Of a stretch of 64,000 bases of DNA, positions 2 to 7,349 are shown one piece after another. Position numbers and translations under genes: made by a program. Within the stretch, counting starts at the first letter, position 1. Every line of letters starts with the position of its first letter. This DNA comes from an uncultured Eubacteriales bacterium (GTDB taxonomy: Bacteria > Bacillota > Clostridia > Christensenellales > Aristaeellaceae), in contig CACWXP010000012.1 in NCBI GenBank assembly GCA_902764875.1, forward strand, positions 1-64,000. Reading direction: 5' to 3'. The notes under the pieces are model-generated. The model made no database searches. It saw nothing but the letters and a program-made list of their open reading frames with translations, and was not told the DNA's origin.

Positions 2-679
2 CGGATCATCAACCTGGGAACGCCATGGCACAAAGACGACGTTTTTTGCCGAATGCCGAACATTCACAGGTACGACTGCTATACGACGGGGTTGATTTCT
101 CCGGCGCAGCTGGACGTTTTGCGCTCCTCCATGCCGCCGAGCATGTTCGCGGCGAACTATGAGCTGAAGCACATTGCTTCGGAGAACGCCTTCTTCACCA
201 CGCCGCCGGTTTTTACGGACAATCCGCTGGTTTTGCGGGACGGGATTTCGCACGTGGACGCTTCGTACGGCGGGGAGGATTTTACAGCCTTTACCTGCGG
301 AAAGCGGAAGGGGAACACGATTTACCTTTACGGGCGGATCTGGCATTCGCATGTGGACAAAGTGCTGGAGGAGATCATCGGGGAGGCGGAGCGGATGATG
401 TGCTGGCCTATGTATTGTGAAGACAACGGAGACAAGGGGTTCTTTTGCAAGGAGATCCGGCGGCGGGGGCATTACGCGAAGACCTATACGGAGCACCAGA
501 ACAAGGTGATCAAGATTTCGAGCTATCTGCGGAAATGGTGGCCGAACATCGTTTTCGTGCGGGGGACGGACGCGGAATATATCAACCAGATTTTGGACTA
601 TACGGAGCAGGCGGAGCACGACGACGCGCCGGATTCGGCCGCTTCAGTTTGTCGGAGATTGGATGCGCATTATTGGTAG
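2..679 (+). CDS. Phage terminase large subunit, C-terminal nuclease part (5' end outside window)
   Basis: The frame is open from the left edge, so only the last ~226 residues are visible. It begins with the end of the ATPase domain (NLGTPWHKDD). An RNase H-like nuclease domain follows, with three acidic positions typical of TerL: Asp in HVDASYGG, Asp in CEDNGD and Asp in DDAPDS. In phages this protein packages DNA into the prohead and cuts concatemers. No portal, capsid or other phage gene follows; the next gene is a chromosomal DUF554 gene on the other strand. The fragment is therefore either the right end of a prophage or an isolated remnant. The call rests on motif layout; the exact phage type cannot be told. 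Confidence 0.8.
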   Translation, partial: RIINLGTPWHKDDVFCRMPNIHRYDCYTTGLISPAQLDVLRSSMPPSMFAANYELKHIASENAFFTTPPVFTDNPLVLRDGISHVDASYGGEDFTAFTCGKRKGNTIYLYGRIWHSHVDKVLEEIIGEAERMMCWPMYCEDNGDKGFFCKEIRRRGHYAKTYTEHQNKVIKISSYLRKWWPNIVFVRGTDAEYINQILDYTEQAEHDDAPDSAASVCRRLDAHYW

Positions 680-694
680 CGAAGAGACTTGAGT

Positions 695-762
695 GGACCG
701 GCGGAAGTGAACCTTTGGTTCACATTAACGCAGGGCCCACTGGGCCCTGCGCCCTCCGGTCC
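695..762 (-). repeat. Three-helix structured repeat element, copy A
   Basis: The segment folds as a three-way junction. Outer helix P1 pairs 695-701 with 756-762 (7 bp). Hairpin P3 pairs 707-713 with 717-723 (7 bp, loop TTT). Hairpin P2 pairs 729-738 with 742-751 (10 bp, loop ACT). A second copy lies at 6238-6307, and every stem difference between the copies is compensated. On the minus strand it starts 3 nt after the stop codon of the DUF554 gene, so it could be a 3'-UTR RNA structure. Conserved flanks extend the match to about 692-766. Strand is inferred only from the neighbouring gene. Confidence 0.75.
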
Positions 763-765
763 GTT

Positions 766-1479
766 TCAGAACTGAATGGGCAGGAAGGCCGCAATCACGG
801 CCAGGACGACAGCGGGAAGCATATTCGCGACTCTGATCTTTTTCCCCCAGACCAGATTCAGACCGACGCAGAAGATGAGAATGGATCCTACCAGAGAAAG
901 ATAGCTCATGGCGAGATCTGTCATTACGGGACGAATGAGGGTGGCAAGAAGCGTCAGCCCGCCTTCCCAGAGGAAGACCGGAATAGCGGAGAACATACAG
1001 CCTTTGCCCATGGAACAGGTCATAACCATGATGATGATCAGGTCCAGGATTGATTTGGCACCGAGCGTCGACCAGTCGCCGGAGATGCCGTCCTGGATTG
1101 CGCCCATGATGGCCATGGCACCGATGCAGACGGTCAGAGAAGCGGTTACAAACCCGTGGACAAATCCCTGATCTTTGGAGTTGCCGGTTTTCCGCTTCAG
1201 CCATTCGCCGAAGCGTTCAAACAGGCGCTCTATGTTGAGGATTTCTCCGATCAGGCCGCCCAGGGCCAGGCACGCGACAACCAGCATTCCGCCGCCGCCG
1301 GGGAGGAGATCGTTATGCAGCATGTGTTTCATCGCGCCGGCTATGCCCAGAAACAGGGTTCCGACGCCGCAGGCCATGGTCAGCGTTTCCTGATGCCTTT
1401 CCCGGATCAGGCGTCCGAATAGAGCCCCGAACAGTCCGCCCGCGATGATGGCCCCGGTGTTGATGATTGTACCCAGCAT
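766..1479 (-). CDS. DUF554 family membrane protein
   Basis: A 237-residue polytopic membrane protein of the DUF554 (YdfK-like) family, whose function is unknown. Recognisable family features are the opening MLGTIINTGAIIAGG, a glycine-rich small-residue helix (GGLFGALFG) and the segment CIGAMAIMGAIQDG. I chose the internal ATG at 1479 because AGGGAGG lies 9 nt upstream; the longer reading from 1551 adds a charged, non-family stretch. It is the last gene of a minus-strand group with a HAD phosphatase and a flavodoxin. Its stop codon directly abuts the three-helix element at 695-762. Confidence 0.85.
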   Translation of the reverse strand: MLGTIINTGAIIAGGLFGALFGRLIRERHQETLTMACGVGTLFLGIAGAMKHMLHNDLLPGGGGMLVVACLALGGLIGEILNIERLFERFGEWLKRKTGNSKDQGFVHGFVTASLTVCIGAMAIMGAIQDGISGDWSTLGAKSILDLIIIMVMTCSMGKGCMFSAIPVFLWEGGLTLLATLIRPVMTDLAMSYLSLVGSILIFCVGLNLVWGKKIRVANMLPAVVLAVIAAFLPIQF

Positions 1480-1540
1480 ATCCGCAACCTCCCTTTTCTG
1501 AAACAGAATACCGACAATAGCCTTTTGGGCAGAAGACGTT

Positions 1541-2275
1541 TTACGGAGCAATTAGTTCTGCAGCGGATGACCACCTTTTGAGAACTTCAAACAATTCGTC
1601 AAAAGAGGAAGCGCAATAGTTGATATCGTAAGCAGCCATCGCTGCTTCGATATCCCCGGAGGGCATGAACCATACGGAATCCAGGGACGCGTTTTTCGCG
1701 CCGAGCATATCCGAAGAAAGTGAATCGCCGATCATGATGCATGAAGATTTCGGTTCCGCGATCTGAGCAAGGCAAATATCGAAGAATGCCGCATCGGGCT
1801 TTGTTGCACCCATTTCTTCACTGATGAATAATCCATCGATATACAGGTCAAGACCGGTGGACGCGATTCTGCCCTTCGCGTTTACGGTCGCACCGTTGGA
1901 GGCAATATAAATCCTCGCGTGCGGTATGTTTTCCTTCAACTTTCCGACAAATTCCAGGGCGCCGTCCATCAATACACCATTTACGGACATCGTACGGATG
2001 AAATCGTCGTTGACCTCCAGAGGATCAAGGCCGGATGCATTTCCTTCGCAGCGGCTGAAAACATCCAGGAATCGCTTCGTAAAGAGTTCTGTTCTTGTGA
2101 TGGCTCCCTTTTCCAATTCAAGCCAGAGAGATTTATTGTATGCTTTAAACGCCTGGTAAATCTCATCTGAGAACGAAAGGCCGTTGGCTTGCAGGACGAT
2201 GCCGAGCGCTTTATACTCGGAGGCATGAAAGTCCAGTAATGTCTGGTCGAGATCAAAGAGAAAGTTGCGATGCAT
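1541..2275 (-). CDS. HAD-superfamily hydrolase, YjjG-like (noncanonical nucleotidase type)
   Basis: A 244-residue HAD subclass IA phosphatase. Motif I is FDLDQTLLDF (Asp8 nucleophile, Asp10), motif II is in YIASNGA, the motif III lysine is in GATKPD, and motif IV is MIGDSLSSDM. The cap-region segment NKSLWLELEKGAIT and the segment LFISEEMGATKP resemble YjjG, which dephosphorylates damaged or noncanonical pyrimidine nucleotides. That substrate is an inference. ATG at 2275 is preferred (AGGAG upstream); the longer reading from 2416 overlaps the flavodoxin gene and adds arginine-rich, non-conserved residues. It lies 31 nt downstream of the flavodoxin gene and is probably co-transcribed with it. 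Confidence 0.85.
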   Translation of the reverse strand: MHRNFLFDLDQTLLDFHASEYKALGIVLQANGLSFSDEIYQAFKAYNKSLWLELEKGAITRTELFTKRFLDVFSRCEGNASGLDPLEVNDDFIRTMSVNGVLMDGALEFVGKLKENIPHARIYIASNGATVNAKGRIASTGLDLYIDGLFISEEMGATKPDAAFFDICLAQIAEPKSSCIMIGDSLSSDMLGAKNASLDSVWFMPSGDIEAAMAAYDINYCASSFDELFEVLKRWSSAAELIAP

Positions 2276-2306
2276 ACGGCAGCTCCTGATCGCAATGGCT
2301 GGCCGT

Positions 2307-2717
2307 TTATCCAACGATCTTTTTCGCGAACGCCGCGGCCGCGACAAGATCCGATTCGTCCGGCTTCCCTTTGTGGAGACCTTTGAATTCGCCCTTGCAA
2401 TGGAATTCCCGCTCATCCATTGAAATGCCGACTTTATCAGCCACAGCTTTGACCTTTTTCCAGGTGGAGTTCATCATGGCGGCTGAACCGAAGTTTACGA
2501 TTTTTCCGACTTTTTCCTTCGACAGGGATTCAACAAACCGGCGCACTTCCGGATCGATGGTAAAGGCATAGTAGGAGTTGCCGAGGAAGAGAATATCCAC
2601 AGATTCAGTGACCGGCGCGGTGACAGGAAGCGCCTCCACGCCGACTGCTTTTGCGATTGCTTCTGCCAGGCGTTTTGTATTTCCTGTTTTCGTGTAATAT
2701 CTTACTGCGATTTTCAT
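2307..2717 (-). CDS. Flavodoxin family protein
   Basis: A 136-residue flavodoxin-like protein. The FMN phosphate-binding loop is visible at the N-terminus (YYTKTGNTKRLAEAI), and the 50s loop region reads GNSYYAFTIDPEVRRFV. Flavodoxins carry electrons one or two at a time through bound FMN; the partner here is unknown. Start ATG at 2717 has AAAGGA upstream. It is the first gene of the flavodoxin-HAD-DUF554 group, with a plausible promoter at 2786-2814. The nucleotide composition here is AT-richer than in the core region to the right. Confidence 0.85.
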   Translation of the reverse strand: MKIAVRYYTKTGNTKRLAEAIAKAVGVEALPVTAPVTESVDILFLGNSYYAFTIDPEVRRFVESLSKEKVGKIVNFGSAAMMNSTWKKVKAVADKVGISMDEREFHCKGEFKGLHKGKPDESDLVAAAAFAKKIVG

Positions 2718-2785
2718 TGGTCAGTACCATCCTTTCTGTCAGGTCATTTGGGTTCGGGAGAATCAAAGCTTAAAAACCCTTTCCG

Positions 2786-2814
2786 ATTATACACGAAAGC
2801 GGGGCGTTTGTCCC
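2786..2814 (-). promoter_or_regulatory. Predicted sigma-A promoter of the flavodoxin operon
   Basis: On the minus strand there is a -35-like GGGACA (2809-2814), a 17-nt spacer and a perfect -10 TATAAT (2786-2791), about 70 nt upstream of the flavodoxin start. Confidence 0.6.
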
Positions 2815-2910
2815 GTGATTCTCAGAAATAGGGAAGAGAGTGCGCAAAAGTTTGCAGTAGGAGACAAAAATTACCATTTTGGAGTGAGAACTAGCAGTTG
2901 GACTACGCTG

Positions 2911-2988
2911 TGTGCCTAGAATTTTTTGTGCCTAAAACGGGGCCTGATGCAAGGAATATCAAGGATTTCGGGGAAAAATGTGTGCCTA
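2911..2988 (+). repeat. Three short direct repeats TGTGCCTA
   Basis: The octamer TGTGCCTA occurs at 2911-2918, 2927-2934 and 2981-2988 in the ~295-bp gap upstream of the unknown gene at 3013. The second and third copies also share a following AAA and a nearby ACGG. They may be protein-binding sites or remnants of a mobile-element end. Apart from these and the flavodoxin promoter I see nothing else in the gap. Confidence 0.5.
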
Positions 2989-3012
2989 AACGGAGAGGAG
3001 GAGAAAAACAGA

Positions 3013-3651
3013 ATGGCCTATTCAACCAAACCGGTTAAGATTCCGAAAGTTCCGGGGAAGATCACGCTTCGGAAGCGCAGCGACCGGACATACGTGGTAT
3101 ATGAGACCGGCAGAACATATAACAGCGCGCGGAAGAACACCAATCCACTGCGGAAATATATCGGGCTGCAGATTCGGAACGCGCCGACGCTGATGCTTCC
3201 GAATGAGAATTATGAAAAGTACTTTGGAAAGGACGGGGAGGAGAAAATGACGGCTAAGGAAAGAACGGCGTCGGAGAATTATGAGGCGATGAGCAACGAT
3301 TTCTGGATGCTTGACTGCATGTTTGAACAGCTGTACTTTGAATTTCAGATTCAGGCGCACCGGAACCCGCATTTCGTTGTGAACGCATACAAGATTCAGC
3401 GGATTAACAAGATTCTGGTTCCTTTGAAGCATCTGATGGAGGGGAAACCCTACGGAGCTTTTCTGGAGATTCCGGAGGAGCCGGTGGAGGTTGAGGAAGA
3501 GGAAGGACTTATTACAACGGGTGTGGATCAGGAGGAGATGCCGGTTCGGGCCCGAAAGACAAAGCTGGTCGGGCTGGATTACAGCGATATTGCATTGCTT
3601 TTGACGCAGTACAAGGGGGCAATGACGCGGTTTGCGGGGGATTGTTTGTGA
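3013..3651 (+). CDS. Unrecognised 212-residue protein
   Basis: I do not recognise a characterised family. The N-terminus is basic (MAYSTKPVKIPKVPGK, then LRKRSDRTYVVYETGRTYN). A middle section is rich in Tyr, Phe and Asn (NENYEKYFGKDGE; FEQLYFEFQIQAHRNP). Near the end there is a Glu/Val run (EEPVEVEEEEG) before a hydrophobic C-terminus. No signal peptide or membrane segment is seen. The start is well supported: GGAGAGGAGGAG precedes ATG at 3013, whereas the longer ORF start at 2926 lies within the TGTGCCTA repeats. The YVVYETGRTYN region faintly resembles leader segments of some Firmicutes transposases, but no catalytic domain follows. It stands alone between the flavodoxin operon and a toxin-antitoxin pair. 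Confidence 0.6.
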   Translation: MAYSTKPVKIPKVPGKITLRKRSDRTYVVYETGRTYNSARKNTNPLRKYIGLQIRNAPTLMLPNENYEKYFGKDGEEKMTAKERTASENYEAMSNDFWMLDCMFEQLYFEFQIQAHRNPHFVVNAYKIQRINKILVPLKHLMEGKPYGAFLEIPEEPVEVEEEEGLITTGVDQEEMPVRARKTKLVGLDYSDIALLLTQYKGAMTRFAGDCL

Positions 3652-3688
3652 TGGGAGGATGTTTGGGCCGAAAAGAATACGCTGAGCG

Positions 3689-3717
3689 TTGCAATTTCCA
3701 AATAATCATGCTATTCT
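3689..3717 (+). promoter_or_regulatory. Predicted promoter of the toxin-antitoxin pair
   Basis: TTGCAA (3689-3694), a 17-nt spacer and TATTCT (3712-3717) lie 43 nt upstream of the antitoxin ATG. The last base of the -10 box is the first base of the palindrome at 3717-3740, so a bound repressor would cover the transcription start. Confidence 0.6.
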
Positions 3718-3740
3718 GTACAAAACGTACGTTTCGTACA
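3717..3740 (+). promoter_or_regulatory. 24-bp palindromic operator upstream of the toxin-antitoxin genes
   Basis: A near-perfect inverted repeat: the left arm begins TGTACAAAACG and the right arm ends GTTTCGTACA, centred on a GTAC. Only one pair of symmetric positions breaks the symmetry. It lies at the probable transcription start and 19 nt before the antitoxin gene, as expected for autoregulation by an antitoxin dimer. Binding is inferred. Confidence 0.7.
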
Positions 3741-3759
3741 TTGCGATTCGGAGGTTGTT

Positions 3760-4197
3760 ATGGATCAGTGCGTTGATTATATGAAAAGCGCTTCAGAGGT
3801 GCGTAAGGAATGGAGCAGTACCATTGATACTGCGCTTCGGGAACATCCTGTGTTTATTCAGCGAACAAGGGATAATCTGATTCTGCTGGACATTGCTACG
3901 CTCAGGCTGGCGTTTGAAAACCTCCGCTTTGAGCTGATCCTCTATCCGGAAAAAGACGGCTCCGTTACCTTGGTTGAAAGTCATCTGGACCTGGTTGAGA
4001 ATGCCGCAAACAAAGATTCCGGCATTGATCAGATGATTCATGCCCTGCGTGATTATGCCAGCGATTTTTACAGCGAGTTTGCATTGTGGTCAAAAGCGCC
4101 AAACAGAAAAAGTCATATTCCCTATATCCTGAAAGTGCTTTCCAGTACCGACGATGAGCTCCGGGAGGATATCGTATGCCGAAATGGAAAGAACTGA
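3760..4197 (+). CDS. Phd/YefM-like antitoxin (probable)
   Basis: A 145-residue protein. Its N-terminal part matches the pattern of Phd/YefM-type antitoxins: a short helix with ASEVRKEWSSTIDTALREHP, then the beta-hairpin VFIQRTRDNLILLD and the segment ATLRLAFENLRFEL. The C-terminal half is acidic and would neutralise the toxin. The gene has GGAGGT 4 nt upstream of ATG. It overlaps the downstream toxin-like gene by 22 nt, a typical antitoxin-first order. The palindrome in front suggests autorepression. The family call is by pattern only. Composition is clearly AT-richer than neighbouring core genes, which fits horizontal transfer. Confidence 0.7.
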   Translation: MDQCVDYMKSASEVRKEWSSTIDTALREHPVFIQRTRDNLILLDIATLRLAFENLRFELILYPEKDGSVTLVESHLDLVENAANKDSGIDQMIHALRDYASDFYSEFALWSKAPNRKSHIPYILKVLSSTDDELREDIVCRNGKN

Positions 4198-4394
4198 AAC
4201 GATTTTGCGATCGGGATAACTGGGAATGCTATAAAGTCACCGATCATTATTTCTATCGTAAGATTCTTCCGGACGGGAACATTCTGTACACCAAAGTTTC
4301 AAAAGGAAGCGGTGAAATTGGATACCACATGTGGAAAGAAATTTTGAATCGACAGCTGAAAGTAACTCAGGAGTATTTCAACAGTAAGATTTAA
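4176..4394 (+). CDS. Small HicA-like toxin candidate
   Basis: A 72-residue basic protein. The layout WECYKVTDHYFYRKI, then a strand ending in TKVSKG, then EIGYHMWKEILNRQLKV recalls HicA-type dsRBD-fold mRNA interferases: an aromatic strand with a central His, followed by a helix that ends in an ILxxQ-like segment. Its start lies inside the end of the antitoxin-like gene (22-nt overlap), so translation is probably coupled. Toxicity and RNA cleavage are inferred from context. A non-HicA small toxin is possible. Confidence 0.65.
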   Translation: MPKWKELKRFCDRDNWECYKVTDHYFYRKILPDGNILYTKVSKGSGEIGYHMWKEILNRQLKVTQEYFNSKI

Positions 4395-4426
4395 TATACT
4401 TCTGATGCAGAGCGGAGGTGAGGGGT

Positions 4427-4672
4427 TTGACATTGACCAGGGTGTTTCAGTACGGAAACAGCCAGGCGGTTCGTATTCCGAAGGAATTCCGATTTAATAC
4501 GGACAGAGTCATTGTTACCCGGGTCGGACATGCACTTGTGCTGACACCGGAAGACCAGCTTGCGGCGGTGATGAGAGAAGGCTTCAGATCCGTACCGGAA
4601 GATTTTTTGGCATCAGGACGGGAAGAATTCATTCCTTCTGAGAAAGATTCACTGGATACCGATCATGAATAA
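4427..4672 (+). CDS. VapB-type antitoxin (orphan)
   Basis: An ~81-residue AbrB/SpoVT-fold protein. The N-terminus reads TRVFQYGNSQAVRIPKEFRF, followed by the swapped-hairpin strand RVIVTRVGHALVLTPED, characteristic of VapB/MazE antitoxins. The TTG at 4427 is preferred because GGAGG (4414-4418) lies 8 nt upstream; a GTG at 4418 overlaps the Shine-Dalgarno sequence. A VapC (PIN-domain) toxin normally follows, but here the next sequence is a truncated surface-protein fragment 3 nt downstream. The toxin gene therefore appears to have been lost or replaced. Confidence 0.8.
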   Translation: MTLTRVFQYGNSQAVRIPKEFRFNTDRVIVTRVGHALVLTPEDQLAAVMREGFRSVPEDFLASGREEFIPSEKDSLDTDHE

Positions 4673-4675
4673 ACT

Positions 4676-5152
4676 GTGCGGGATGAATCCTATGTAGCTT
4701 CGGTAGACAGTTCCGGCAAGATTACTGCAAAGCATGCCGGGAAAACCAGAATTACAGCTACATCTACGGACGGAAGCAAAAAATCAACCTATGTTGATGT
4801 GATTGTTGAGCCGGCTGTCCCAATTTCACTGGATAGTATCGGTTACGGCATTTACAATTACAACCTCCTTGGAATTACAGTAACAAACAAGTGTTCCACT
4901 CAAGCTATAGTTGATTTTGACTTTGATCTAAATTTCTATGACTGGGGCGGAAGCAAGATTAACGGTGGAAGTTACAGTCTGGGAAAAGAAGTAAGAATCA
5001 GGGCCGGCGGTAAAACTACGATTAAGAGGACTGTATATGGCACAGGCCAGGCATATAAAACTGTTATAACAATTACGGGAGTTAAGTTTGCTGACGGATC
5101 ATACTGGTCGATACCTTATGGAAAGCAGGAAACATGGAGCTTTACAAGGTAA
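4676..5152 (+). pseudogene. Truncated Ig-like (Big2) surface-protein fragment
   Basis: 158 codons without a convincing start. The first ~45 residues are the second half of a bacterial Ig-like domain 2 (SVDSSGKITAKHAGKTRITATSTDGS). A beta-rich C-terminal domain follows, with no sorting signal. A complete protein of this type would have a signal peptide and a full Big2 repeat, and both are missing. The fragment begins 3 nt after the vapB stop, with no ribosome binding site of its own beyond the vapB end. I read it as the 3' remnant of a longer secreted protein joined to vapB by deletion or insertion. Confidence 0.7.
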
Positions 5153-5239
5153 AACAGAGAATCGGAAGAGATGAGAAAACGTTTGACGTTTTAAAGTTCG
5201 GCTGGTGTTTTGTAATGCTGAAACGGAAATAAGCGAAAC

Positions 5240-5271
5240 AAAAAAAGGAACGGAGGGTTGCTCCGTTCCTT
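5240..5271 (-). terminator. Rho-independent terminator of the secreted lipocalin-like gene
   Basis: GGAACGGAG (5247-5255) pairs with CTCCGTTCC (5261-5269) around a 5-nt loop. On the minus strand the stem is followed by a T7 run (5240-5246). It lies 22 nt beyond the stop of the gene at 5293-6057. Confidence 0.85.
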
Positions 5272-5292
5272 CATTGGTCTTATTTGCTTTGA

Positions 5293-6057
5293 TCAAGCGG
5301 CGGGGGTTTCGGCGGCCGCGGGGGCGGGCTCGAAGATAAAGGAGATTTCCTGACCCATCGCATTGATATACAGGGAGGCCATGCCATCCTTCAGGAGCAT
5401 GACTCCCAGGGTCATCTGCAGATTGTCGAGGCCCAGGCTGCTCAGATCCATACCGGCGGACTGAGAAGCCTCAGCGAGCATTTTGCCGAGATCAATGGAA
5501 AGGGCTCCGTCCGCGAATTCCATTTCGAGCGGGTCCGCACCTGTCATGGACTCCAGACCGGTCAGATGCATGGTGTTTCCTTCGATCTTCATGCCGGGGA
5601 TCTGAGAGGCGCCCAGCTGTTCCACGGGGATCGCGGTGACATCGATGACCATACCGTTCATGGAAACATATTTGCAGACCCATTCGCCAGCGAAGTCTTC
5701 CAGCTTGGCTTCGGTGTTCACTTCGGCCAGGGTGATGGACTGGGCCGCTTCGGCATCACGGGTGAAGGTAACGGATTGCTTTTCGTTTACGAGGGTTGTT
5801 CCATCGTAGACAAAGCCGTTGGCTGCATCGGTGTCGCCGTCCATGTACACGATGCCGTCCTTCAACTCGTAGGTTCCGGGGAGTTCATTTTCGCCCATGA
5901 GGAGCTTGTAGGTGTTGTCGGCATTGAGGGTGAGCGTGACGCTCATGCCGTACATCGTGCCATACCAGTTGCCGGTGATGTCCGCACCTTCCGCCAGGAC
6001 GGCGGTGTACAGGCAAACCAGGCACAGAGCCAGAAGCAGAGATACGAGTTTCTTCAT
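5293..6057 (-). CDS. Secreted lipocalin-like protein of unknown function
   Basis: A 254-residue protein with a clear signal peptide (MKKLVSLLLALCLVCLYTAVLAEG). The mature part has two beta-rich units with the opening pattern ITGNWYGTMYGMSVTLTLNADNTY and, later, FAGEWVCKYVSMNGMVIDV. This W-containing start followed by 'tyel-dgivymdg' strands is common in lipocalin-like domains of clostridial secreted proteins. It ends in an Ala/Pro-rich tail. ATG at 6057 has AGAAAGGAAG upstream; the longer frame start at 6084 precedes this site. It is monocistronic, with its own promoter (6120-6149) and terminator (5240-5271). The ligand is unknown. Confidence 0.7.
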   Translation of the reverse strand: MKKLVSLLLALCLVCLYTAVLAEGADITGNWYGTMYGMSVTLTLNADNTYKLLMGENELPGTYELKDGIVYMDGDTDAANGFVYDGTTLVNEKQSVTFTRDAEAAQSITLAEVNTEAKLEDFAGEWVCKYVSMNGMVIDVTAIPVEQLGASQIPGMKIEGNTMHLTGLESMTGADPLEMEFADGALSIDLGKMLAEASQSAGMDLSSLGLDNLQMTLGVMLLKDGMASLYINAMGQEISFIFEPAPAAAETPAA

Positions 6058-6119
6058 GTTTCCAATCTTCCTTTCTTGATTCAAAATCTGCCGGCTGGGC
6101 CGGCTGCTCTCCTTTCGCT

Positions 6120-6149
6120 ATTGTAACATTTTTACAGCTGGGTTGTCTA
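6120..6149 (-). promoter_or_regulatory. Predicted promoter of the lipocalin-like gene
   Basis: On the minus strand: TAGACA (6144-6149), an 18-nt spacer and TACAAT (6120-6125), each 5/6 matches to the sigma-A consensus, about 60 nt upstream of the ATG at 6057. Confidence 0.6.
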
Positions 6150-6237
6150 TGACGGGATTGAATTTTCTTTGTACATACAACTTTTAGGGAAATAAATCGA
6201 AAAAGTGGCCGAAAAAAAGGTTTTGTATGCGAAAAGT

Positions 6238-6307
6238 GGTCCGGAAGAAAGTGGACCGATGGTCCACCATTAACGCAGGCCACACAGTGGCCTGCGCCCT
6301 CCGGACC
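6238..6307 (-). repeat. Three-helix structured repeat element, copy B
   Basis: The same architecture as copy A at 695-762. P1 pairs 6238-6244 with 6301-6307. P3 pairs 6251-6257 with 6261-6267 (loop GAT). P2 pairs 6274-6283 with 6287-6296 (loop ACA). Junction strands (ATTAA before P2, CCCT after P2) are conserved, while stem bases change in pairs. It lies 31 nt downstream of the holA stop on the minus strand, so both copies follow the 3' end of a minus-strand operon. The sequence between it and holA contains AGAACCGTCCCCCTA. Confidence 0.75.
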
Positions 6308-6338
6308 GTTTGGCCCTAAAAGAACCGTCCCCCTATGG

Positions 6339-7349
6339 TCACTTTCGGGTTGGGCGGAGGTTGAGGAGCTTCAGCATGACGGCTTCCAGGGCTCCTTCCT
6401 GGTTGAGGCGGCCGGATTTGATGCCGTACTCGGTATCGAAGCAGATATTGACGGCGTTTTTGATCTGGCCGTTGGACCAGCCGGCGGCCTGGCGGACATA
6501 CTGATCCACGGCGAAGGGCGGGACGCCCAGGGCGGAGCGGATCTCCGCGGAGGAACGCTTTTCATACTGCATGATCTTGATATGCTGGAGAAGGCGGAAC
6601 TGGCGGAGGAGCATGGAGAGCATATACATGCGGTCGGCGCCGGCGAGGAGCTGATTGCGCATAAGGAGGAAGGCGCGGCTGCTCTGGCCGGAAACCACGG
6701 CGTCCACCATCTGGAAGACGGTACACTCCGTCGACGGGGTGGCGACAGCGCGGACGGAATCCGGATGGATGACGGGGGATTCGCCGGCATGGGCGGCGAC
6801 CTTGGCGATCTCCGTGAGGAGAAGGCCGGTATCGCTGCCGGAGGTGAAGATGAGGAAATCGGCGGTACGCTCGTCGCACTCCTTGCCGAGATCGCGGAAG
6901 GCGGAAGTGACGAAGGTGGTGAGCTCCCGATCGCGCAGGGGGGAGAAAACCACGACGCCGTTCAGCTTCTTGATGACGGTATAAAGTTTTTTTCTGCCGT
7001 CCGGCTTCTGGGTGCAGAAGAAGAGGAGCACCGCGGAGGGCGGAACGGAGGGGAGATACTCCGCGAGGCGGTCGTCCGCCTCGGCGCGGCCGATGAGGGC
7101 CGGATGATTGCGGACGACGACGAGCCGGCGATCGGCCATGAAAGGCAGGGTTTCCGCCGCGGCGATGATCTGGTCCGTTTCCGGAGCATCGAGAAGCGTG
7201 CGGTTCAGTTCCTGCAGGCCTTCCGGGAGAAGTTTTTTCTGCAGGGCATCGAGGGCGGACTGCTTCATATGCTCCTCTTCACCCTCGAAGAGCAGCACGG
7301 AGGGAATCTTCCCCTGGGAAAGGAGACGGTCAAAATCCTTGCGATCCAT
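6339..7349 (-). CDS. holA: DNA polymerase III subunit delta
   Basis: A 336-residue HolA, the clamp-loader subunit that opens the sliding clamp. The N-terminal part has the family pattern IPSVLLFEGEEEHMKQSALDAL and an AAA+-like fold without a functional Walker A (LPFMADRRLVVVRN). The C-terminal helical domain (MLSMLLRQFRLLQHIKIM) is the collar. It starts 2 nt after the comEC stop, the usual Firmicutes comEC-holA order; rpsT, which often follows, is absent here. It is the last gene of the long minus-strand cluster. Confidence 0.92.
   Translation of the reverse strand: MDRKDFDRLLSQGKIPSVLLFEGEEEHMKQSALDALQKKLLPEGLQELNRTLLDAPETDQIIAAAETLPFMADRRLVVVRNHPALIGRAEADDRLAEYLPSVPPSAVLLFFCTQKPDGRKKLYTVIKKLNGVVVFSPLRDRELTTFVTSAFRDLGKECDERTADFLIFTSGSDTGLLLTEIAKVAAHAGESPVIHPDSVRAVATPSTECTVFQMVDAVVSGQSSRAFLLMRNQLLAGADRMYMLSMLLRQFRLLQHIKIMQYEKRSSAEIRSALGVPPFAVDQYVRQAAGWSNGQIKNAVNICFDTEYGIKSGRLNQEGALEAVMLKLLNLRPTRK

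Follow-up and report, generated by a model that had tools for sequence, protein, structure and literature searches.

Three-helix repeats behind two gene ends of an uncultured Eubacteriales bacterium as probable RAYT/TIRYT-type palindromes grown by nesting

The 64,000-nt stretch of DNA analysed here (hereafter the window) contains two copies of a three-helix element, each lying downstream of the end of a minus-strand gene, which raises the question of whether its fold is maintained as that of a structured RNA or belongs to a mobile palindromic repeat. Inspection of the two copies agreed with the first-pass annotation, which had described both from the letters of the DNA: all 24 pairs form in each copy with no mismatch (Table 1), and the four stem differences between them are all compensated, with A-T to T-A in P1, A-T to G-C in P3, and G-C to C-G and C-G to A-T in P2. 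The junction strands ATTAA and CCCT are the same in both copies, and domain matches identified the neighbouring gene ends as those of a DUF554 gene and holA. As RNA, the + strand folded with z −6.75 (copy 1) and −7.17 (copy 2) and the − strand with z −6.90 and −8.68, respectively, with none of 200 shuffles as good in each case; as single-stranded DNA, the − strand gave z −7.50 and −7.34. Between copy 2 and holA lies a further, separate short repeat, at about 6311-6342, within which the holA stop codon falls (6339-6341). On the far side of copy 1, which lies between the two, a + strand ORF at 53-679 is convergent to the DUF554 gene and shows a weak, sub-cutoff likeness to the phage terminase large subunit (TIGR01630, 25.9 bits vs 41.65).

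Table 1. Elements and host genes at the two sites in the window
Feature	Position	Strand	Details
Three-helix composite repeat, copy 1	692..764	-	P1 695-701/756-762, P3 707-713/717-723, P2 729-738/742-751; 96.3 bits
Three-helix composite repeat, copy 2	6235..6309	-	P1 6238-6244/6301-6307, P3 6251-6257/6261-6267, P2 6274-6283/6287-6296; 94.6 bits
Central hairpin 25-mer CGCAGG-N11-CCTGCGTT (P2 + TT), copy 1	727..751	-	
Central hairpin 25-mer CGCAGG-N11-CCTGCGTT (P2 + TT), copy 2	6272..6296	-	
Short GGGACGGTTCTTTT repeat, putative RAYT-type palindrome with degenerate arms, abuts copy 2	6311..6342	-	exact motif 6315-6331; outer limits by eye
DUF554 gene, stop codon adjoins copy 1; host gene, outside the element	766..1482	-	PF04474, 243 bits
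holA gene (DNA polymerase III delta), 3′ end bears the insert; host gene, outside the element	6339..7349	-	PF21694, 95.7 bits

Further copies were sought with a covariance model (R1), a search that the first-pass annotation had proposed, built on the two window copies plus a third one located by a pattern search; the fourth copy was not used. Four strong matches were obtained in the window genome, comprising both window copies (contig C12) and the matches at C13:74153 and C13:77922 (85.7 and 84.6 bits), and the next-best match in this genome scored 41.6 bits. That the element might have no further copies, on which the first-pass annotation had hung its reading of selection for the fold, is set aside by these four. 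The third and fourth full copies are less perfect than those of the window, with pairs broken in P1 and P3 of the third and a DNA fold of z −3.52 for the fourth, for which 1 of 200 shuffles was as good. Weaker copies bearing the central hairpin are also present among the 35 R1 rows for the genome, some of which are the same place on opposite strands and the weakest of which are doubtful. Across the 45 genomes of the genus, no match beyond the four full copies exceeded 43.3 bits and 15 genomes had some match at E up to 0.01, while 16 order-level relatives gave none at E up to 0.001, in runs whose stricter filters lost weak matches. A scan of genome contigs for the exact three-helix core, from which the window genome's own records were possibly left out, returned 0 matches; the form found in congeners had 8 matching stretches, which came from RGIG2654 and RGIG3319, two Clostridia MAGs of the goat forestomach, and viral contigs contained neither the three-helix core nor the short repeat.

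Analysis of covariation, in the full copies as well as for the central hairpin, supported the earlier claim that the fold is conserved. Among the four full copies, a small number of related sequences in an alignment fitted to the structure, 92.7% of 96 cells are paired, six pairs are changed on both sides, and two-sided changes occur in all three helices. Four of five covariation measures beat all 500 shuffles, with slid controls all far lower, and the fifth (further pair types) was reached by 156 of 500 shuffles. For the 16 central hairpins (15 exact copies plus locus L013, giving 14 distinct rows), 97.1% of cells are paired, three inner pairs are changed on both sides and four measures beat all shuffles, while 33 of 500 shuffles reached the number of two-sided pairs. 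That the outer six hairpin pairs are constant here is unusable as an argument, because for 15 of the 16 rows it follows from the search pattern; weaker hairpin copies do vary at these pairs.

Two readings of these paired changes dispense with a functional RNA. Template switching corrects palindromes, and the changes might therefore be a by-product of palindrome mutation, by template switching or copy-to-copy conversion, with no selection on the fold; the inner hairpin arms co-vary in several ways, and the commonest central hairpin of the genus retains an A-C mismatch on the strand read here, as this explanation would allow. However, two-sided changes in all three helices of four copies, together with arms that stay paired over many sequences of the wider family, speak against it, and we consider it unlikely. 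The second reading is mobile DNA, with which the covariation is compatible because a folded single-stranded DNA substrate of a transposase would leave the same signature, such that a functional RNA does not necessarily follow from covariation in a three-helix element with several copies.

Comparison of the full copies with simpler ones showed that the element shares its parts with other repeats in the genome. The central hairpin pattern had 16 exact matches in the window genome (the 4 full copies and 12 other places) and a reversed-pattern control had 0; a looser pattern had some match in 22 of the 45 genomes, among which single matches may be chance because its control gave 0-2 per genome. 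The exact 25-mer CGCAGGCCACAGTGCGGCCTGCGTT was found in the window genome (2) and in G004 (7), G012 (4), G042 (2), G058 and G019. The short repeat, with the layout TGNNCC ... GGGACGGTTCTTTT ... GGNNCA, has its core GGGACGGTTCTTTTNGG at least 22 times in the window genome (control 0), and this exact core occurs in only 3 of the 45 genomes, the window genome and two others. By reading, the left arm fits TGNNCC in 18 and the right arm GGNNCA in 20 of 22 short repeats; the arms pair at outer and inner positions, and each of the two C-G positions adjoining the loop is paired in 21 of 22.

P2 constitutes a module of its own, which simpler copies place in the loop of the short repeat directly after GGGG. 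In the simplest hairpin-bearing copies (L012 and L015), the hairpin is preceded by GGGG and followed by CGGTTCTTTT, and it occupies the place of a single A in the short repeat; L014 and L025 carry a complete short repeat beside the central hairpin. In the window copies, P3 has arms of the kind found in the short repeat (GTGAACC/GGTTCAC and GTGGACC/GGTCCAC, around a three-base loop) and P1 is similar to the termini of a short-repeat variant on contig C47 (GGTCCGGAGGGACGGTTCTTCCGGTCC); at L013 a complete short repeat replaces P3, in a DNA fold whose centroid, though not its minimum-energy form, is three-helical. With P3 arms and P1 ends like those of the short repeat and with the L013 hybrid, the three-helix form therefore reads, on sequence likeness, as repeat nested on repeat, a composite of short repeat and hairpin module.

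The spread of REP/TIR-type repeats is attributed to RAYT or TIRYT, an HUH (Y1) transposase specific for single strands. No match to Y1_Tnp (PF01797) was found in the window genome, the assembly of which is 93.24% complete, and the link to a RAYT therefore rests on the congeners, 28 of 44 of which had PF01797 matches. At 24 of 26 congener loci examined, out of 45 with RAYT-size genes, the motif GGGACRG lies within about 250 nt of the gene, on one side or both (upstream in 21, downstream in 22 and on both sides in 19); it is missing at two, five loci being without it upstream and four downstream. The motif was approximately 7-fold denser near these genes than more than 300 nt away at the same loci; GGGACGG had been taken from the short repeats of the window genome, and A was allowed (R) only after the flanks had been viewed. 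The flanking palindromes have a common core and arms that differ between genes; CAAGACAAGGGGACGGTTCTTTTGTCTTG, beside a G001 gene, is an example. Both RAYTs that were scanned contain the Y1_Tnp domain, with scores of 82.1 and 74 bits for NF047646 (REP-associated tyrosine transposase, cutoff 80), and one of the two has a C-terminal HTH_7. In 20 loci read by eye, no RAYT gene was immediately flanked by the three-helix form or by the CGCAGG hairpin, and the nearest case was a central-hairpin copy about 1 kb from the RAYT in G012.

We propose that the elements are probably RAYT/TIRYT-type non-autonomous palindromic repeats (REP/TIR type) that grew by nesting. Congeners also carry short (~155 aa) Y1 genes, and the terminal arms of the elements resemble short inverted repeats, as would be expected of ordinary MITEs moved by a DDE transposase or by an IS200/IS605 TnpA element with no relation to a RAYT; since GGGACRG palindromes adjoin the RAYT-size genes, however, and no target-site duplication was noticed by eye, we regard such MITEs as very unlikely.

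Comparison with published systems places RAYT/TIRYT-type repeats closest, and the match to a known REP or transposon end that the first-pass annotation had named as a refutation was obtained in part. TIRYT genes are described as Y1 transposase genes flanked by palindromes with GGGG[AT][CG]A[CG], of which dispersed copies occur in some genomes (Di Nocera et al. 2013, PMC3733652; subclass 2.1, PMC6006769), and the transposase of subclass 2.1 is described with a C-terminal helix-turn-helix (PMC6006769). Like these TIRtrons, the RAYT loci of the congeners bear GGGGAC[AG]G-type palindromes with variable arms; unlike them, the repeats studied here, in a Clostridia genus, form by nesting composites of two or three helices that include a second hairpin module, and their own genome is without a detectable transposase. 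The short repeats also read GGGACGG, in which G replaces the A of the published motif: 22 of them carry GGGGACGG, AGGGACGG or CGGGACGG, which depart from the consensus GGGGWSAS by one base or more, and some RAYT flanks in congeners carry GGGGACAG, an exact fit.

REPs and REPINs of E. coli and Pseudomonas are described as short palindromes that lie close to the 3′ ends of genes, are associated with REP-type tyrosine transposases and are presumed to move in the form of single-stranded hairpins (PMC3116915, PMC8266576), and placement downstream of genes is given for REPs in general (PMC3733652). The elements described here likewise include short palindromes near gene 3′ ends with a RAYT association (via congeners), but number in the tens of copies and form a three-way junction instead of two inverted REPs. 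They share the dispersed, mostly intergenic placement near gene 3′ ends of GTAG-type REPs, but none of 15 distinct copies has a GT[AG]G tetranucleotide 5′ of the central hairpin foot, where the four bases are AGGG, GGGG, GGGA, AAGG or CGGG. The nearest published analogue of the composite that we found is provided by the TIRs of P. putida and P. fluorescens, described as degenerate GTAG-1 units joined to unrelated stem-loops in many copies (PMC3733652). As here, a REP is joined to an unrelated hairpin, but the sequence and host are different, and the two parts adjoin instead of being nested in a loop. Searches of the open-access literature found no nested three-helix forms and no account of this repeat family in Clostridia; those for REPIN and RAYT in Firmicutes found none, and those with the motif GGGGACGGTTC gave unrelated matches only.

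The main alternative to a mobile repeat is a cis-acting 3′-UTR RNA, in which a three-way junction just after the stop codon would block exonucleases or end transcription. Gene context, taken from a home-made gene caller for 20 R1 hits, bears on this directly. All four full copies run along the gene strand, 1-29 nt after a same-strand stop codon, whereas the eight partial copies located at most 60 nt from a gene 3′ end comprise one that runs along the gene and seven that run against it. Such a difference between full and partial copies is predicted by an RNA role, and the strand bias of the full form, although a small-sample result, is the best point for that role and the one to be kept from the structured-RNA option of the first-pass annotation. 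The gene strand is also somewhat more stable than its complement in both window copies (−49.5 vs −48.3 and −52.2 vs −45.8 kcal/mol), and compensatory changes are as expected of a conserved RNA.

Nevertheless, the partial copies that run against their genes leave no consistent gene orientation over the wider family, and 4 of the 20 hits fall inside predicted ORFs; of the 16 outside, 12 have a gene 3′ end within 60 nt. Both strands account for pairing faults, with gene-strand G-U in 3 cells and, in 2 cells, A-C, which is G-T on the complement; there is therefore no sign of one selected RNA strand. An intrinsic terminator was rejected, as no terminator-like call was made at 692-764 or 6235-6309, and no curated structured-RNA family fitted, as Rfam gave no match at gathering threshold in the whole window and, over 600-6400, only an unrelated 22.1-bit match at 5230-5352 (E 3.3). 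Together with the absence of the hairpin behind holA in congeners (below), these results make a 3′-UTR RNA unlikely.

The tails after P1 vary between copies. A search for tRNA and tmRNA gave none, and an integron attC site, suggested by the GTTRR after the hairpin, was dropped because several copies misfit GTTRRRY. Elsewhere in the window, a strong terminator-like palindrome with a T run lies at 5244-5272, 3′ of the gene downstream of holA, overlapped by a sub-threshold preQ1-II riboswitch match (22.1 bits, cutoff 47) that is probably chance.

The holA site was compared in 29 congeners, with 30 of 44 holA matches taken as loci. holA and the following secreted-protein gene are adjacent in most congeners read, and the gap between them, 281 nt in the window genome, is 58-131 nt in 26 of 27 congeners and 284 nt in G050; a next gene after holA was found in neither G006 nor G051, where the scan covered 300 nt. 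The central hairpin was absent behind holA in all 29 congeners read, two of which (G004 and G052) have a single GGGACRG motif in that place. G050 and G014 are nearly identical at holA and constitute a filled/empty pair, with an insert of ~180 nt at the holA stop in G050. This insert (L136; G050:C1, about 2500-2690), with the frame CCGAAGGG...GATCGGAAAGCCCC, folds with z −7.27 into a branched structure different from the window form, and its frame (GATCGGAAAGCCC) is common to hairpin-bearing elements of G004, G012, G013 and G015. The inserts of the window genome and G050 differ, and two species therefore bear different multi-hairpin inserts at the same gene end. At the DUF554 site, reading 190 nt after the stop by eye in 20 congeners, out of 29 congener loci, found no such element, and G008 has a short GGGACGG-type motif after its stop; this site is weak evidence because gene order there is not conserved.

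Between the readings that the first-pass annotation had left side by side, a REP-like mobile element is thus favoured by the copies, the modules, the RAYT flanks, the holA gap and the G050/G014 pair, whereas a dedicated structured RNA loses ground on Rfam, gene orientation and the congener holA sites. The transposition step of the proposed RAYT/TIRYT-type repeats is inferred from analogy and association. A further hairpin beside P2 gives the three-way junction. The transposase would recognise and strand-transfer folded single-stranded hairpins, and fold-keeping changes would survive and show up as compensatory changes. The window genome may have lost its transposase, or the assembly may be without it, in which case the copies would be relics that may passively cap gene 3′ ends. 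More tentatively, and with considerable doubt, we suggest that the RAYT repeats of this Clostridia genus could self-nest, with hairpins entering the loops of earlier repeats just after GGGG, with multi-branched single-stranded junctions as the mobile unit, and with three-way junctions having arisen independently in at least two species (the window genome and G050).

These results point to RAYT/TIR-type repeats in a Clostridia lineage, in which the filled/empty holA site and the hybrid forms make the growth of composite repeats traceable and the congeners offer several related transposases whose flanking palindromes can be seen. Two further observations in the window genome concern the arrangement of the modules. 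Loci L076 (C47:2273) and L064 (C11:1774) have similar flanks, but one contains a full central hairpin and the other half a hairpin followed by the short-repeat core, a possible rearrangement intermediate. At L053 (C3:139185), two tandem left halves of the short repeat (TGAACCTATGGGGACGG twice) are followed by one right half, an arrangement that suggests step-wise growth of nested repeats.
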